Shown here: positions 1-8,044 of the stretch, in pieces
Position numbering within the stretch: position 1 is the first letter of the stretch
Layout: every line of letters begins with the position of its first letter
Origin: a virus
Virus record (IMG/VR): IMGVR_UViG_3300032086_001969
Location: 1-22,313 of that record
Strand: one strand, 5' to 3'
Length of the DNA stretch: 22,313 nt
Notes under the pieces: generated by a model
Told to the model about the DNA's origin: nothing
Seen by the model: the letters and a program-made list of their open reading frames with translations, nothing else
Database searches by the model: none
Translations under genes and position numbers: made by a program

Positions 1-265
1 ATGTTTTTAAAGTTAAGTCGGTGAGGGTTCCAAGGCTGCCCATTAGGGTGTGCCAACTAAGGAAGACATATCTCTCTTAACTCGAGCTGATTAGATGTAT
101 ATCTATTTACTGAGGAAACTCGAGGCGAAAAAAAAAGACCTTAAGAAAGAACCCAGTTGAAACAAGCATTTCTAGTTACACAAAACGATTTAACAACTAG
201 GCTTCTGGATTCTTACTTAAAGTCTCTTTTTCGTTTTGTGATTCTTGACGCTGGTTTCAATCAGC
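1..265 (-). ncRNA. Candidate structured noncoding RNA, 5' part, truncated by the window edge
   Basis: No gene fits this stretch, but on the minus strand it folds into consecutive stem-loops. First is GCTG/CAGC (262-265 with 250-253) with an 8-nt loop. Next is a long hairpin: 205-233 pairs with 126-156 (one U-U mismatch, three G-U pairs, a 2-nt bulge), continued by 201-204/164-167 and 195-200/172-177, with apical loop 178-194. Then come CTCGAG 119-124/81-86 enclosing 101-105/92-96, and a stacked arm 76-82/11-17, 61-64/28-31, 52-54/34-36, 46-48/39-41. The apical loop bases 179-188 are exactly complementary to 231-240, and bulge 157-163 to loop 254-260, suggesting a pseudoknot and a loop-bulge contact. 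A promoter-like sequence precedes it. The family is unknown; large ornate phage RNAs such as GOLLD or ROOL are only an analogy. A terminator (T9 tract at 128-136) or a DNA-level replication element are alternatives. Confidence 0.5.
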
Positions 266-272
266 AAATACT

Positions 273-300
273 ATTTTACTCCTTTATTTAATTTTATCAA
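273..300 (-). promoter_or_regulatory. Putative sigma70 promoter for the structured RNA
   Basis: On the minus strand TTGATA (300-295, 5/6 to consensus) is followed after 16 bases by TAAAAT (278-273, 5/6). The expected start lies about 7-8 bases on, at or next to G265, the first base of the first hairpin of the structured region. The -35 lies inside the end of the upstream gene. The region is AT-rich, so chance matches are a real concern; the coincidence of start site and structure is the main support. Confidence 0.45.
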
Positions 301-499
301 CCTGTTCTTGGTTGTTGTTTAGTTCATTAAGCCCGTTTTCGATAAGTCCAATCGCAGAATTAAGACCTCTAGCCTCTATTTGAGCCTGAAACATAGCCAG
401 ATAGCCTGCAATTGTCATTTCTTGCCGCATGCTTAACGGGTCAATATCCTTCAATCCTTTAGTTATAAAATCAACTATTGCGCTGTAATTATCACTCAT
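284..499 (-). CDS. Small hypothetical phage protein (71 aa), last gene of the left operon
   Basis: An acidic, probably all-helical protein of 71 residues with no recognised motif. The start is well supported: AAAGGAGG lies about 9 bases upstream and overlaps the end of the preceding gene, which stops 3 bases before this ATG. It is the last coding gene before the structured noncoding stretch; its 3' end carries the -35 box of the putative RNA promoter, and an AAAGGAG directly after its stop has no ATG or GTG at a usable distance. The asparagine- and glutamine-rich C-terminus (residues about 57-67) is low complexity. Function unknown. The operon context suggests an accessory or early-type phage protein. 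Confidence 0.75.
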   Translation of the reverse strand: MSDNYSAIVDFITKGLKDIDPLSMRQEMTIAGYLAMFQAQIEARGLNSAIGLIENGLNELNNNQEQVDKIK

Positions 500-502
500 T
501 CT

Positions 503-736
503 CTATTCCTCCTTTTCGGGATACATGCTCATTATCTCTATTCTTTCGTATTCATTCACATCACAACACTCGATAGCATCATGCGGAACCTCGCAGTCTC
601 CAGCTAGCAACGCCGGACAACCCTCATCGCAGCCTGACATTACCCCATAATTATGGCAGACGCTGGAAGTTATAAACCCACCTTCCAAATCTGTCATAGT
701 GCGGCTAAATGCAAGCTTATGGTTGTTTGGCTTCAT
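503..736 (-). CDS. Small cysteine-rich protein (77 aa), possible metal binder
   Basis: The 77-residue product has six cysteines, at about positions 27, 36, 40, 48, 57 and 58, plus histidines at 28 and 52. The core CDEGCPALLAGDCEV gives C-x3-C-x7-C spacing, which would suit a small zinc-binding or iron-sulfur fold; this is inference from residue pattern only. The rest is acidic, ending in PEKEE. Its ATG overlaps the stop of the upstream gene in an ATGA (733-736), pointing to translational coupling. I do not recognise a named family. A disulfide-bonded secreted peptide is unlikely because no signal sequence is present. Confidence 0.75.
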   Translation of the reverse strand: MKPNNHKLAFSRTMTDLEGGFITSSVCHNYGVMSGCDEGCPALLAGDCEVPHDAIECCDVNEYERIEIMSMYPEKEE

Positions 737-2194: not shown

Positions 2195-2439
2195 AATGCC
2201 CTCCAGGTCGTATCTTTTGGGTGTTTTGCCATAATGCAGTAATCCATACCTGATATTTTCGAAAGCTCTGAGATGGTTTTTTTGGCGACGTTTAGATAGT
2301 CAAACGCACTAACCCTGAATGTGTAGGCGTTTTCAGTGTTATAATACCCGCATTCAAAACTTACTCCATCGTTATATTTTCGAAACTTCAAGTTGCCAAG
2401 TTTTGTTACTTTCCCTCTGTAGTTCTTTGTTAGACTCAT
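2191..2439 (-). CDS. Hypothetical basic protein (82 aa)
   Basis: The reading frame extends upstream to 2514, but that part overlaps another real gene, and the ATG at 2439 (MSLTKNYRG) is preceded by GGTGG at 7 bases and overlaps the previous stop by ATGA, so I start there. The protein is 82 aa and basic: beta strands in the first two-thirds (KLGNLKFRKYNDGVSFECGY) and a helix near residues 48-62 (VAKKTISELSKIS). No motif identifies it. The arrangement repeats the coupled layout seen through the operon. Confidence 0.72.
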   Translation of the reverse strand: MSLTKNYRGKVTKLGNLKFRKYNDGVSFECGYYNTENAYTFRVSAFDYLNVAKKTISELSKISGMDYCIMAKHPKDTTWRAL

Positions 2440-2561
2440 GACACTAACCACCCTATAAACCATATTAAACCAAGCCCAATCAGCCAAAACAGTAAACCTA
2501 TGCCAACTAAACATAATAGACTTACTTGGCCCTCTGTTGCGTTATCTTGCTCGTTATTCAT
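2436..2561 (-). CDS. Very small membrane protein (41 aa)
   Basis: Translation of this 126-base frame gives 41 residues: a 12-residue polar acidic head, then about 27 continuous hydrophobic residues rich in Leu, Gly, Trp and Ile (including GLLFWLIGLGLIWFIGW), and a terminal Ser. It is one transmembrane helix with almost no exposed tail. Its ATG overlaps the repressor-like gene's stop (2558-2561) and its TGA overlaps the next gene's start (2436-2439), both as ATGA, which argues for a real translated gene despite its size. GAGG lies about 10 bases upstream. It could modulate a host membrane protein or act as a toxin-like peptide; nothing in the sequence decides. Confidence 0.68.
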   Translation of the reverse strand: MNNEQDNATEGQVSLLCLVGIGLLFWLIGLGLIWFIGWLVS

Positions 2562-2764
2562 TGTGGGAATACCTCGTCTACTGTTGAGTTAAGATTCATA
2601 GCTATCAATCTAGCCCTGCCTAGTGATGGGCTTCTAACTTTACCCGTCTCTAAGTCGTGGATATAGCTTTTGCTAGTGCCGGTCATATCGGCCAAGGATT
2701 GCAACGTAAAGTCTTGCGCTCTCCTAATTTTTCTTACATTATTTGGACGTCTCGTATTGTTCAC
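2558..2764 (-). CDS. XRE/Cro-family helix-turn-helix DNA-binding protein (68 aa)
   Basis: A single-domain DNA-binding protein in the lambda-Cro/C1 class. Residues about 10-60 match the HTH_3 pattern: helix RKIRRAQDFTLQSLADMTGT, then the recognition helix around SKSYIHDLETGKVRSP and two closing helices ending in TVDEVFP. There is no C-terminal peptidase or oligomerisation domain, so it is Cro-like in size rather than a full repressor. The start codon is GTG, with AGGTG 5 bases upstream. It is first in the left operon, directly behind a strong promoter, so autoregulation at that promoter is likely by analogy. Whether it serves lysogeny control or timing of the small-gene operon is open. Confidence 0.85.
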   Translation of the reverse strand: MNNTRRPNNVRKIRRAQDFTLQSLADMTGTSKSYIHDLETGKVRSPSLGRARLIAMNLNSTVDEVFPQ

Positions 2765-2856: not shown

Positions 2857-4971
2857 CTACCATGTCGCCCCGCTGTGAGCGGTTCTTGTCCAGCCGTTAC
2901 CTGCTGAAATTATATTTGTGCGATAAAAGTATATATAAGTTCCATCTATAGCGTAATCCCCATCCTCACCGCTGTCGCTTGAGGCTGTTGGGACTGATAC
3001 AAGCCTTGCAATAGCTCTTGTCCCTCCATTGTGATAAACGGACAGCCCAGATGTTGTATCATACCTCATCATTCCATCGGTCAACGACGTAAAATTCCAT
3101 GCGGAACTTGGAGTAAGTTTAAAATGTGGGAATTCATAGGTTTGGTCTGGGCCGCCGTTAAAATTAACATTCCCTTGACCTGGTCTTGGATAAAAGTCTT
3201 GGATTAATGCTGTAGGGGCTGTCACCCCAAACGAGTTAAGCATTCTATAAACGCCTATAGAGGATTTGCCCCATGGAAATGCGCCGCCCTCGCAAAAATT
3301 AGCTGTTCCTGACGCCCCTCCAGAATCCGCAACCGTAACCTCAATTGAGTTTGTGTCAACTACAGAGGTTATCTCGTGAACTCCGTCAAAAGTAGCGTCA
3401 GAGCTGTCCCACAAAAGAATCCTCTGGCCTTCTCTTATTGATGATACCCCGAGATTGTGAGTTATTGTTAATGTTGTTGTTGATCTTGACCATGCAGCAT
3501 CTCTTACGGGTCTTAGTGGGTATGTTCCGCTGTCAAAATTAGGCATAAAAGGCTCATACCTTAATTCTAAATTAGACATAGTGCTATTATCTAAAATCCA
3601 ATCTTTAAATGCCGCACTAGAGTCTTCGCATCTGACGCCTTGGCCAATGTAAATACCAGAGGCGTTAGTTCCAAGCTCCACCCCATACTCTGTTATAGTC
3701 AACGCTTCACAGCTCCCAGACACCCAATTAATGTGATTGCTTATCTCTACGAATAGGTTTCTTACATTCGCTCTGATATTGCAAGAATTTAGGTAGACAG
3801 TGTTCGCCTGCCCTTCATTGGCAACTCCTGATAGCGTCAAGCCGTAATAGTTGTTTCTAACGTACCACCCGTTAAAGCTGTTATAAAAAGCACCGGTAAT
3901 CGTTGGGTTGGGGTTTGTTTCACCAAGATAGTAATTAGGGTTCCCAGACAAAATAACAGCCTTTGCACCTGTTTTTAAATAGCCGTCAACATGTACTGGA
4001 AGCATATTGTCTGCTTGAACATTTGATGCGTAAATACCTGCGTCCCTGTCAGAATTCCCTGTAAGTCTGAAATTGCCAAACGTCCAGCCTTGAACTCCTC
4101 CACCGTTGGCGACCTGTCTATCAGCGGCTGTGCCCACTATAAATGCTGGGTCTGATGTCGCCGCTGTAACATCAGTAAATACTGTTGTTGCTGGTCCACT
4201 CATAATAAAATTGCTATCTCTATAGACATTTATTTGTCCATCGATATCATACGCGCCTCCAGTATCATACGTACCAACACCACTAAATTGAGCATAGAGG
4301 GTGGCAGCGTTTATGGCGGCGACGTTATCTGATCCACTTGCCGAGTCAGAAGCCCCGCAAGATCTTATGTTTATGCCGTCACCCGCCCTCAACACAAAGC
4401 ACTTAGTAGCATCAACGGTTGATACGATAATATTAAATCCGTTTGGTAGGTCTACGTTTGGAGTGGTTCCTACTGTGGTGACTTTGTACTTTGCGCCGCC
4501 ACCATTACCGCTTGAATATTCATCGGTTTCAACTATTTCGCCGACCTTAAAATCAAAAACAGTTAAACCATCTCTTGATAAGTGGTTAGCCATGTCTGAA
4601 ACTGTTAAACATCCGTAGTCAGTGTAATCGCCTATATTTGATTTAACTATATTGCTGGAACCGCCTTCTGCGTTTATATTGTCAGCGAACTGTTTGGCAT
4701 TACTTGTGTCATTAGCGTCCGCCTCAGCTTCTGTTGGGAATAGCCATAAGTCATAAGCCCCATCAATATAAGGTATTGTTAGAGCGCCACCCACCGTATT
4801 AGGAAAGCCGTTAGTATCTAACTCAAGCTTTGCAACAGTAGTAGACCCTGCTGAATCCAAAGCCATAACAAGCGGCGTTGTAGTGCCTTGCGTGTAAGCC
4901 TTTAACCACCAGTTAGCGTATAGATCTGGATCATATTGAGGTATTGTGTATGCTATCGGGGCGTAGGCCAT
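2857..4971 (-). CDS. Tailspike protein with N-terminal head-binding domain and beta-helix body (704 aa)
   Basis: Residues 1 to about 105 resemble the particle-binding domain found on podovirus tailspikes (motifs YANWWLKAYTQGTTTPL and DGAYDLWLFPTEAEADAND). After a glycine-rich linker (about 150-160, SSGNGGGAKY) comes a segment with DSASGSDNVAAINAA and GTYDTGGAYDIDG, the usual entry into a pectate-lyase-like right-handed beta-helix, which fills most of residues 195-560. The C-terminal part is beta-rich and ends in W. Such proteins bind and often cut host surface polysaccharide; I cannot assign the catalytic residues or substrate. It lies directly after the ejection proteins (TAATG overlap with the upstream gene), the P22 gene 9 position. 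Length matches P22 gp9 (about 670 aa). Confidence 0.85.
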   Translation of the reverse strand: MAYAPIAYTIPQYDPDLYANWWLKAYTQGTTTPLVMALDSAGSTTVAKLELDTNGFPNTVGGALTIPYIDGAYDLWLFPTEAEADANDTSNAKQFADNINAEGGSSNIVKSNIGDYTDYGCLTVSDMANHLSRDGLTVFDFKVGEIVETDEYSSGNGGGAKYKVTTVGTTPNVDLPNGFNIIVSTVDATKCFVLRAGDGINIRSCGASDSASGSDNVAAINAATLYAQFSGVGTYDTGGAYDIDGQINVYRDSNFIMSGPATTVFTDVTAATSDPAFIVGTAADRQVANGGGVQGWTFGNFRLTGNSDRDAGIYASNVQADNMLPVHVDGYLKTGAKAVILSGNPNYYLGETNPNPTITGAFYNSFNGWYVRNNYYGLTLSGVANEGQANTVYLNSCNIRANVRNLFVEISNHINWVSGSCEALTITEYGVELGTNASGIYIGQGVRCEDSSAAFKDWILDNSTMSNLELRYEPFMPNFDSGTYPLRPVRDAAWSRSTTTLTITHNLGVSSIREGQRILLWDSSDATFDGVHEITSVVDTNSIEVTVADSGGASGTANFCEGGAFPWGKSSIGVYRMLNSFGVTAPTALIQDFYPRPGQGNVNFNGGPDQTYEFPHFKLTPSSAWNFTSLTDGMMRYDTTSGLSVYHNGGTRAIARLVSVPTASSDSGEDGDYAIDGTYIYFYRTNIISAGNGWTRTAHSGATW

Positions 4972-6836
4972 TATTCTAAATCCTCTAATAGTTCTTTTAT
5001 GGCTTTTATAGCCTTTTCTGGGGTGCTGCCTTTTAACTTATCAACCACTGTCTTGCTTGCTTTTGCGGCAGCTTGAGCTGCTGAACCTGTGGCAGCGTCA
5101 ACAACCCCTTCCGCTATTTGATTCTTAAATCCTGTTTTTGGTGCCAGCTTAAACAGGGTTTCCAGATCGTCAGCAAACAAAACTTGCTCCAATATTCTAT
5201 CTTTAAATTTAACACCGTTATTGATTGCAGCATCTTCGAGCTTGCTCATGGTTTCTATAAGATTTGCTCTAGTTTGCGTATTATTGGTTAGAGATCTTAA
5301 TTTGACCCCTAAAGCTTTATCTGCCTGACCGCCAGAAAGATTCAACTTAGCGCCTGCCGCCTTTTGAAAATCATCCAAAGCACCGATAGTTTCAGAGTAA
5401 ACATCATTAACTCTCTTGTATGCTGGAAATTGCTCATCCAGCAAAGAGTCGAGCGACCTTCTGAGATTTTTTAGCGGGGCTTCAGCGGCTCCAGCCTGAC
5501 CTGTTGCGGTTTTACCGAAAGCAACTTGCTTATCTATGAATCTTTTTAGCTTGTGTACCTCTAGAGCGTTTCCAGACTCAGGAAGCTTATTAAGTCTTTT
5601 AAGAGCCAAGCTCAATATTTTTTGAGAGCTTGTCGCGCCTGGGACACCCCCTTCTATCGCTGAGTCAACAAAGTTCAACCTCCTAAGATTACCATCTATT
5701 TTTATATCTAATTTAGCTAAATCGTCAGCAAATTGATTAATCGCGGTAGATTTATTTACCGTTTGCCCTTTAAGAGAGCTGTTGGCTATTTTATCTAAAT
5801 TAACGCCTGCCCTGTTGTTAATACTTCTAACCGCCTTAACTCTATTCAATAAAGAGTCTCCAGCAATGTCGCCAACTCTATTTTCTGCTCTAAACGTTCT
5901 ATTTTTTAGTGATTTTTCGGCAATTTCAAGCATCCTTTTGAAGTTTAACCTCTCTAATGCGTTTGAGGATTTAACCATTGATACTGTAGCCGCATCCAAC
6001 CCCTCGTTAACTGCGTTTTGTGCGACTGAATCTTTAACAATTCTAGGCAATCCGTCAGTTATTTTGCTTTTTAGATTGTTCGCACTTAATTTCACCCCTG
6101 CAACATCAGCATCGGTAGAGCCTTCTGCTATCATTTGAGATAGTTTTTGCTTTGCTGGTGTTTGAAGTTTTGAAAATTTATCAACTGTTGCTCGAGTTGC
6201 TTGCTGTTGCGCAGCTGTACTAGCGGCCGATTGACCTGGAAGCCCCTTAACACCTGTTAGCTGTTTAACCCCTAACAAAGATAACGTTGCATCTGGCAGC
6301 GTGGAAGCGATAGCAGCCACAAATGGACTACCTGTTTTATTTAAGACATCATCACCCACATTCCCTCTAACAGTCTCCAAACCCTCAGTAACCGGCTGTA
6401 ATGTTTCAGCAACATCTTGCACCGCCCCTTGACCCGTTCTTAGTTTAGGTTTAAAGGTTAACGCCTCTTGAACTTGCTTTTGTCTCGCCGCCCCTGCAAA
6501 TTCAGGTGCAAAAGGGTTGGCTGCATCAGCTAGGCCAGCAATTCCAGATATTGGACCAGAAACTAACCCGCTGCCGACAGCGAGAAATCCCTCAACGCCG
6601 CCGAATACTTGTTCTAGCAAGTCTGGGTTTTGTTTGACTTGATTTAAGCGATCTAAATCACCTTGAATTGATTGTATTTTAGCCTCAGCTTCTTGCTTTA
6701 TTCTCTGTTGATCTGGTGTTAGTGATGGAGCTTGTTGAGATTGGACAAAGGCAAATATCTGCTCTTGCGTAGCCCCTTCTGGAGCTTCAACAGTAACTAT
6801 TTTACCATCGGGCATTTGAACTTTAACGGCTGGCAT
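4971..6836 (-). CDS. DNA ejection (injection) protein, P22 gp16-position (621 aa)
   Basis: A large virion-internal protein expected to be ejected with the DNA into the host envelope. The first 35 residues form a small domain (VQMPDGKIVTVEAPEGATQE) common at the start of podovirus ejection proteins, followed by a coiled-coil stretch (about 42-70), a glycine/alanine-rich amphipathic region (about 78-110, FLAVGSGLVSGPISGIAGLA) that could insert in membrane, and a long helical C-terminal body. Length is close to P22 gp16 (609 aa), and it follows gp7- and gp20-like genes. No lytic transglycosylase motif is visible. Start and stop overlap neighbours by TAATG. The assignment rests on position, size and composition rather than clear residue conservation. 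Confidence 0.72.
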   Translation of the reverse strand: MPAVKVQMPDGKIVTVEAPEGATQEQIFAFVQSQQAPSLTPDQQRIKQEAEAKIQSIQGDLDRLNQVKQNPDLLEQVFGGVEGFLAVGSGLVSGPISGIAGLADAANPFAPEFAGAARQKQVQEALTFKPKLRTGQGAVQDVAETLQPVTEGLETVRGNVGDDVLNKTGSPFVAAIASTLPDATLSLLGVKQLTGVKGLPGQSAASTAAQQQATRATVDKFSKLQTPAKQKLSQMIAEGSTDADVAGVKLSANNLKSKITDGLPRIVKDSVAQNAVNEGLDAATVSMVKSSNALERLNFKRMLEIAEKSLKNRTFRAENRVGDIAGDSLLNRVKAVRSINNRAGVNLDKIANSSLKGQTVNKSTAINQFADDLAKLDIKIDGNLRRLNFVDSAIEGGVPGATSSQKILSLALKRLNKLPESGNALEVHKLKRFIDKQVAFGKTATGQAGAAEAPLKNLRRSLDSLLDEQFPAYKRVNDVYSETIGALDDFQKAAGAKLNLSGGQADKALGVKLRSLTNNTQTRANLIETMSKLEDAAINNGVKFKDRILEQVLFADDLETLFKLAPKTGFKNQIAEGVVDAATGSAAQAAAKASKTVVDKLKGSTPEKAIKAIKELLEDLE

Positions 6837-8044
6837 TATTGATCCACGCTAATAATTTTAAATCCTGAGAAATCTTGACTTTCTGGCTGCTCTTGAGATT
6901 GTGACTCTTCTTGTTTTGAGCGCAAAAAACCTGCAACCGTCCCGCCTTGATCTAAGAATTGAATTTGCTCGTTAAAGTAGTCTCTAAGCTTGGACTGTGC
7001 CGCTTTTTTTCTCTCAAGGAAGTCTTTTAAGTCTGGTTCGCTCATACCTGTATCTAAAGCAATCGATCTAGCTAAATTTAACTCGCCCTCAGATAAAGCG
7101 CCGAAAGTTGTCGAGCCTACAACATCAAGCGCTAATTCGCCTTGTATTTGATTTAACTCTCTAGTAGCTGCTTTTATACTAGGAAAGAATCTTTCTGCCG
7201 CACCAGTTCCAGCGCCTCTATCTAGAGCGCCTATCGCTCTATCGATATTGTTGATGTTTTTAGTAATGCTTGCAACCTTCTCAAAACCAGAGTCAATAGC
7301 CTTTCCTCTTGATGATGCTGTTAATTCTCCAAATTTTTCTCTTTGCTTAATATCTGCTTTATTTTCTCCAACCGTTTGAGAGGTAACCTCACTACCGCCG
7401 ATCGAAGCCGGAACAAATGTTTTTTGGACTGGATCGAATATGTGGGGAACACCACCAACATCCACAGTTTTAGCAGAAGCTCCAACCGCTCTTGGTGCAG
7501 TCCCTAATGCTATTCTAGCTGATTGCTTTTCTTCATCGGTCGCATTAGGATCTTTTAAAGTATTTAGCAACGACTGCCGCTCTCTTTGCCCAGCCGTCAT
7601 ACCACTATTGCCAGAAAACACACCTAATTTTTGACCTAATTGAACACCTTGATTAGCTCTTTGAGCTGCTAGCTCTGGATTAGTATCAATAAGCTGCAAA
7701 AACTGCTTACTCTCAGAAGAGTCAACTCCCTGTCGTTCTAGTTCAACTATTCTCTGCTTGGTAAAGTTTCTAGCCCCTTCAATATCTCCACTGTTTAACA
7801 TGGGGGCGACTTGAGCTGCCGCGACCGCAAGAGATTTGAGTTTTCTTTGTTGCGCTTGGCTTTGAATGTCCGCCTGCCCTGAGTCGACCTGCTGCTGTAA
7901 AGCTTGCTGTCTTAATTCAGATTGAGCCCGATTCTCTCTAATTCTATCTAAAGAATCAACATTTCCAAGAAGCCTTGAGAATGAGCTAGCCACATCAATT
8001 TGGGGCTTAACTTGAAATAATAACCTTGGGTCTACCTCAGCCAT
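6836..8044 (-). CDS. DNA transfer/ejection protein, P22 gp20-position (402 aa)
   Basis: An almost entirely helical, glutamine- and alanine-rich protein: coiled coil at about 30-75 (repeated QQ/QSQAQQ), a Gly/Thr-rich linker with a short beta segment near 190-215 (KTVDVGGVPHIFDPVQKTFV), then a helical domain from about 230 to 375 and a low-complexity Glu/Gln/Ser tail. The C-terminal helical domain, with GTGAAERFFPSIKAA and FGALSEGELNLARSIA, is of a kind widely seen in podovirus ejection proteins, where it contributes to the DNA-transfer channel. It overlaps the upstream gene by 8 bases and lies between gp7- and gp16-position genes. Confidence 0.75.
   Translation of the reverse strand: MAEVDPRLLFQVKPQIDVASSFSRLLGNVDSLDRIRENRAQSELRQQALQQQVDSGQADIQSQAQQRKLKSLAVAAAQVAPMLNSGDIEGARNFTKQRIVELERQGVDSSESKQFLQLIDTNPELAAQRANQGVQLGQKLGVFSGNSGMTAGQRERQSLLNTLKDPNATDEEKQSARIALGTAPRAVGASAKTVDVGGVPHIFDPVQKTFVPASIGGSEVTSQTVGENKADIKQREKFGELTASSRGKAIDSGFEKVASITKNINNIDRAIGALDRGAGTGAAERFFPSIKAATRELNQIQGELALDVVGSTTFGALSEGELNLARSIALDTGMSEPDLKDFLERKKAAQSKLRDYFNEQIQFLDQGGTVAGFLRSKQEESQSQEQPESQDFSGFKIISVDQ

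Follow-up and report, generated by a model that had tools for sequence, protein, structure and literature searches.

A widespread structured RNA of marine phages with predicted pseudoknot helices and a terminator-like end

The closest described systems are the GOLLD and ROOL RNAs, HK022 put, and the noncoding RNA of phage ICP1. GOLLD comprises a variable 5' part, a linker capable of holding tRNAs, and a conserved 3' part, and it is located near phage tRNA islands (PMC12286853). In HK022, the nascent put RNA binds RNA polymerase and suppresses both pausing and termination (PMC9378689), and ICP1 expresses an abundant large noncoding RNA between gp139 and gp140 (PMC7567579). Here, we describe RNA1, a structured RNA that had escaped annotation and that constitutes a real, widespread family in marine phages; those with a known host mostly infect gammaproteobacteria. 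It was detected at the left edge of an IMG/VR virus record of 22,313 bases (i.e., the whole stretch that was analyzed, hereafter the window).

RNA1 shares with GOLLD and ROOL the character of a structured phage RNA with pseudoknots near tRNA islands, and the GOLLD-type location near or around tRNAs was seen in four isolates, where tRNAs directly follow RNA1, and in the array of L003. RNA1 differs from both in its length (~101-161 nt) and in its terminal U run. Their Rfam models match neither RNA1 nor RNA2 (a second conserved element of these loci), in agreement with the initial annotation, which had been made from the sequence alone. More specifically, Rfam searches at gathering and permissive thresholds returned only chance matches in the window and only tRNAs in its relatives. 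Membership in GOLLD (RF02032) was rejected since neither the window nor the relatives gave a covariance-model match, and a dedicated GOLLD search was empty, as were its control genomes; ROOL was likewise rejected because the all-family scans yielded nothing except tRNA. Like put, RNA1 is a structured cis RNA directly behind a phage promoter, but it carries two pseudoknot helices and a terminator-like end. To our knowledge, put has no such end. A stem with an adjoining U run, located between a promoter and a tRNA/RNA operon, is shared with intrinsic terminators and attenuator leaders, whereas the 19-24-bp stem P3, its large folded loop, and the covarying helices X and Y that cross it set RNA1 apart. 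As in the RNA1 loci, the large noncoding transcript of the Vibrio phage ICP1 comes from a stretch without ORFs; however, no RNA1 anatomy was recognized in ICP1, which is without tRNAs, and no homology to its noncoding RNA (L067 5098-6108, minus strand) was found, the best match being a nonsignificant 22 nt with L023 (E = 0.04). We found no description of RNA1 in the open-access literature, although absence there is weak evidence. RNA1 is thus placed as a new family among the structured phage RNAs found by tRNA islands, with an unusual build that joins a knot to a terminator-like end.

The window is probably a viral fragment, and its long genes are all on the minus strand. PHROGs identify terminase, portal, scaffold, major head protein, head closure, and DNA-ejection genes, and the matches of the head protein include epsilon15/phiV10-like phages, with environmental phages being closer. 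The RNA locus lies at the downstream end of this late gene block, past a run of small ORFs whose last member (284-499, minus strand; 71 aa) is directly upstream of RNA1. This ORF is also found upstream of RNA1 in relative I (L031), which is 97.6% identical to the window across the end of the ORF and the promoter. As initially annotated, the left edge is without a gene: positions 1-283 contain no gene-sized ORF, the longest being 44 aa on the opposite strand and 20 aa on the minus strand, and with ORFs of just 20-44 aa a protein-coding reading of the region was rejected.

The minus strand of 1-290 is strongly folded, as had been proposed (-74.6 kcal/mol, z = -4.15, 0 of 200 shuffles as good). 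All of the excess stability resides in 128-272 (-44.8 kcal/mol, z = -6.0, 0 of 200 shuffles), where a single dominant hairpin of ~40 pairs is predicted, corresponding to the ~39-pair hairpin reported earlier. Four consecutive hairpin domains had also been described, but 1-127 folds at chance level (z = -0.65, 49 of 200 shuffles), and the first 100 bases have no match in any relative found.

We delimit RNA1 to 128-272 (~145 nt, minus strand, as are all elements below), based on this folding signal, on the same architecture in 32 loci, and on the allele-swap tests described below. Its start probably falls at ~266-272, close to the previously drawn boundary of 265, and its end at the U run. A promoter-like site indeed precedes it, with the sigma70-type elements TTGATA (-35, 300-295) and TAAAAT (-10, 278-273) separated by a spacer of 16 (273-300; 10 of 12 matches). 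Near the RNA1 5' end, the sequence contains a short hairpin, P1 (GCTG/CAGC, 250-265), which occupies the same place in window-type relatives with a changed loop sequence. The P1 loop holds X (TTGAAAC, 260-254), predicted to pair with X' (GTTTCAA, 163-157), and Y (CACAAAACGA, 231-240) would pair with Y' (TCGTTTTGTG, 188-179) in the loop of the inner hairpin P4 (172-200). The long stem P3 is composed of a 5' arm (205-227) and a 3' arm (136-156) that form 21 pairs (-28.2 kcal/mol); X' immediately precedes the 3' arm, and a run of 9 U (128-136) directly follows P3 as an intrinsic-terminator-like end. Judged from the sequences, a fold in which X and Y are long-range helices crossing P3 as pseudoknots is strongly supported. 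The big hairpin of the initial annotation is therefore present, but it is not a hairpin alone, being crossed by these covariation-supported helices.

Simultaneous pairing of X and Y with P3 (i.e., a static knot) is no less likely than a switch between them. When the two are treated as alternatives, X+Y comes within 2 kcal/mol of P3 in alleles B and D, but most alleles favor P3 by 5-28 kcal/mol, a margin that speaks for a static knot rather than a simple equilibrium switch. Since near-equal energies occur only in B and D, a general bistable switch is unsupported.

Past the U run, the window continues with a linker (CGCCTCGAGTTTCCTCAGTAAATAG, 103-127) that is near-identical in relatives A, B, and E, where it stands at the start of an array of RNA modules. 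By position relative to these loci, 1-102 is taken as the start of such an array, cut by the contig end, and contains a candidate closing stem (AGTTAAG, 82-76; CTTAACT, 17-11). Positions 127-1 would thus be the cut-off start of a module array, the contig ending before anything recognizable.

Relatives were collected by several routes. Using the protein at 733-1053 as a lead, we found IMG/VR G001, with two copies (A and B), and G002 (C), and a DNA pattern led to G003 (D); pattern and protein searches added relatives E, F, G, H, and I, and part of the downstream region (RNA2) as a query uncovered nine further IMG/VR loci. One BLAST query matched 48 records (44 Vibrio and 4 Pseudoalteromonas), mostly with no feature annotated there, and another matched HS1 and HS5 at 90%, its many other matches being explained by the methyltransferase sequence included in the query. 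From the isolated-phage matches, 21 loci were retrieved in addition to four earlier ones. Plasmids gave no match, and neither the RNA2 pattern nor the flanking protein matched any of 84,980 bacterial and archaeal genomes. Collectively, IMG/VR contigs and isolates of Vibrio and Pseudoalteromonas phages yielded 32 homologous RNA1 loci, most of them unannotated, which represent 24 distinct X alleles. A covariation-supported pseudoknotted RNA has remained unannotated in dozens of isolated phages of these genera that can be grown in the laboratory, and its expression, its termination, and the effect of knock-outs are directly testable.

To compare the 32 loci, each sequence was trimmed to begin immediately downstream of the -10 hexamer and to end with the U run. 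All 32 contain a P3 of 19-24 pairs that ends at this 3' boundary. X lies in the loop of a short P1 hairpin close to the 5' end, and X' sits 0-5 nt before the P3 3' arm in most loci. Y and Y', the latter inside the P4 loop, were found in types A, G, and N, and no Y was seen in the Vibrio V subtype. Because MAFFT fails to align X and Y across subtypes, covariation was tested by position in scripts rather than with a pair-counting tool: in an allele-swap test, each X window was paired in turn with the X' windows of all other distinct alleles. For X (24 alleles), own pairing reached 388.8, as compared with a mean of 284.6 and a maximum of 356.4 over 100,000 random assignments (p <= 1e-5). Similarly, Y (17 alleles) reached 331 against a random mean of 216 and maximum of 288 (p <= 1e-5), and P3 duplexes formed from own arms averaged 29.0 kcal/mol as opposed to 9.7 for swapped arms (p = 5e-5, the floor of 20,000 permutations). 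The test windows for X, Y, and P3 were picked after inspection, TATAAT and the U run had served in part to locate the loci, and relatedness was reduced only by keeping distinct alleles. The V subtype, which is without Y, served as an internal negative control and gave p = 0.33 in the same Y test. The fixed X window gives low scores for a few alleles: in L037 and NF, X' precedes Y'. Within the window subtype, every one of the 10 Y positions forms a pair in all six sequences, and each position shows 2-4 pair types; the same holds for X apart from its ends.

Nearly the whole sequence has changed between phages while pairing was kept, which argues that RNA1 is a real RNA. Compensatory changes in the stems had been named beforehand as one observation on which the RNA reading would stand or fall, and the outcome is strongly favorable. 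Such near-total stem turnover with kept pairing represents a striking natural experiment in RNA evolution.

The order of promoter, P3, and U run is well preserved, with these elements in place in 32, 32, and 31 of the 32 loci, respectively, and the hexamer at the -10 position is TATAAT in 29 of them, bearing in mind that loci were located partly by TATAAT. The U run has at least 5 U in all loci except HS5, which lacks it and keeps P3, X, and Y. RNA1 thus displays the intrinsic-terminator feature of a stable stem with a U run immediately behind it. In Seahorse, 1.116.O, 1.085.O, and H2, an intact tRNA gene begins 0-3 nt past the U run, and one or two more tRNAs (Trp, Arg, Gly, Met) come next. 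A tRNA that abuts the U run leaves no space for a promoter, and is therefore presumably made by read-through from the RNA1 promoter; RNAs downstream of RNA1 probably need such read-through. Because RNA1 can directly precede phage tRNAs, it bears on the question of why tRNA islands and structured RNAs are maintained side by side in phages. In HS5, BS5, and jenny, the RNA1 unit is found among head genes, indicating that it is not always the leader of an early operon.

RNA1 also appears to move as a unit. The RNA1 of relatives C and I is identical although their promoters differ, and A, C, and D combine a common promoter with different RNA1 sequences, which suggests that RNA1 behaves as a cassette; indeed, cassette-like exchange is seen between near-identical flanks. 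On our reading of the ORFs, the structural gene blocks differ among relatives, one being a siphovirus with a tape-measure-like gene and others being podovirus-like. Relatives with different structural blocks nevertheless have the promoter, the RNA region, and the small-gene cluster in common, implying exchange of the RNA unit between virion types.

In the relatives, RNA1 is followed by stem-closed modules, by tRNAs or tRNA-like RNAs, and then often by RNA2. Relative C (L003) has two tRNA-Arg genes within a stem-closed module. Relative D (L004 884-998, minus strand) contains an element resembling tRNA-Leu in which the anticodon loop and the variable arm are enlarged; it scores 39.9 bits against the Rfam tRNA model and is not called by ARAGORN. 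Relative F (L023 ~5030-5130) carries a tRNA-like module of ~66 nt, with a 3' CCA and a T-arm-like hairpin, that is common to Xanthomonas phage Kintu (L033 1995-2065), where it precedes tRNA-Trp, Gly, and Arg; its 7-bp acceptor-like stem differs compensatorily between the two. On reading the sequences, the remaining modules are stem-closed structures of no recognized kind. The first module after the U run was considered as a universal tRNA-like stem, an idea that was rejected since individual closing stems are mostly no better than shuffles; our impression is that a few loci only have a tRNA-like first module. A further module at L003 ~7050-7225 combines a 10-bp acceptor-like stem and a T-loop (GGTTCGATTCC) with a large insertion that replaces the anticodon arm.

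RNA2 is the second conserved noncoding element, with the motif GGCGACAaC..cTAAAcTGTTYYGCATATTG, and it lies downstream of RNA1 or of phage tRNAs (e.g., L007 525-645, L034 2900-3055, and L039 3895-4055, among others). It is present after RNA1 in many loci, often followed by a DNA methylase, HNH, or T5orf172 GIY-YIG gene. No Rfam match was obtained for RNA2, and RNAalifold gave a consensus structure of just one 5-pair helix. A conserved noncoding stretch was also observed directly before a T5orf172 GIY-YIG-type gene at L003 ~7540-7765, L004 ~400-610 (minus strand), and L018 ~4815-5030.

The structured RNA gene of no known family that the initial annotation proposed is borne out, with a promoter of its own and with relatives in which the region runs on as structured RNA. 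The proposal of a large RNA running off the edge has no support in that form, RNA1 itself being compact (~145 nt) and ending in a U run; a single long RNA spanning RNA1, the modules, and RNA2 is possible. With respect to function, our leading, still tentative interpretation is that RNA1 is a knotted promoter-proximal leader of a phage RNA/tRNA operon that partitions transcription between stop and read-through. This leader model builds on the conserved fold, the layout of promoter, P3, and U run, the abutting tRNAs, and the cassette exchange. During transcription, P1, X, Y, and P4 would fold into a compact pseudoknotted domain atop the 20-odd-bp P3, which together with the U run has the geometry of an intrinsic terminator. 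A fraction of the polymerases might terminate at this point, freeing a stable knotted RNA of ~145 nt, with the remainder reading through into the tRNAs, tRNA-like RNAs, structured modules, RNA2, and downstream genes, for which no promoter of their own is visible close by. Given that X and Y could form before the P3 3' arm exists, we postulate that the knot sets or regulates the ratio of stop to read-through. Transcription, termination, read-through, and any regulation are thus expectations that we draw from the arrangement.

The same arrangement may be read in other ways. RNA1 might instead be a stand-alone small RNA that acts in trans on a host protein, ribosome, or nuclease target, or as a decoy, with the U run as its terminator and the downstream RNAs living on ordinary leakage. 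Its compact conserved fold with few conserved bases, its own promoter and U run, the strong diversification of X and Y, and its different genome contexts are in line with this possibility, which we nevertheless regard as somewhat unlikely because, in the loci read, RNA1 is always directly joined to more RNAs or tRNAs, and HS5 keeps the knot despite having lost the U run. The co-occurrence of RNA1 and RNA2, with variable modules or tRNAs between them, recalls the three-part layout of GOLLD, whose linker sometimes holds tRNAs, and its location by phage tRNA islands (PMC12286853), so RNA1 could be the 5' domain of one large ornate RNA that includes the variable, possibly tRNA-holding linker and the conserved RNA2, with a GOLLD-like structural or cage-forming role and no homology. 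That is doubtful in view of the U run that separates the halves in 31 of 32 loci, the different downstream RNA that accompanies RNA1 in jenny, 1.064, and 1.276, and the lack of an Rfam match to GOLLD or ROOL. The place of RNA1 directly behind a promoter, for which HK022 put is a precedent (PMC9378689), would also suit a cis-acting antiterminator whose nascent RNA binds polymerase and resists terminators through the operon, but RNA1 itself has a terminator-like end, and we consider this very unlikely. Lastly, P3 and the U run resemble an ordinary operon terminator, which, however, would require neither its own promoter nor P1 nor the covarying helices X and Y; the allele-swap tests reject such a terminator or a chance repeat, leaving it a scarcely credible account of the region.

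Beyond the leader model, we propose a more speculative idea, one that we deem improbable: X and Y may diversify under selection so that the RNA of each phage pairs only with itself. As an allele-specific module, RNA1 would then provide RNA-based recognition between co-infecting or resident phages (for immunity, exclusion, or copy control) through conditional termination before the tRNA/RNA array.

Two of the contigs retrieved have additional features. In one (L009-L012, IMG/VR 3300032087_003094, 74,480 bases), two complete phage-like gene sets are placed one after the other; their structural blocks differ, and the two RNA copies lie 35 kb from each other. This contig is either a chimeric assembly or a real dimer. 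In the other, the small-gene cluster upstream of the RNA includes a gene with many pentapeptide-like repeats of the ADLRSANL type (L004 ~2430-2760, minus strand).
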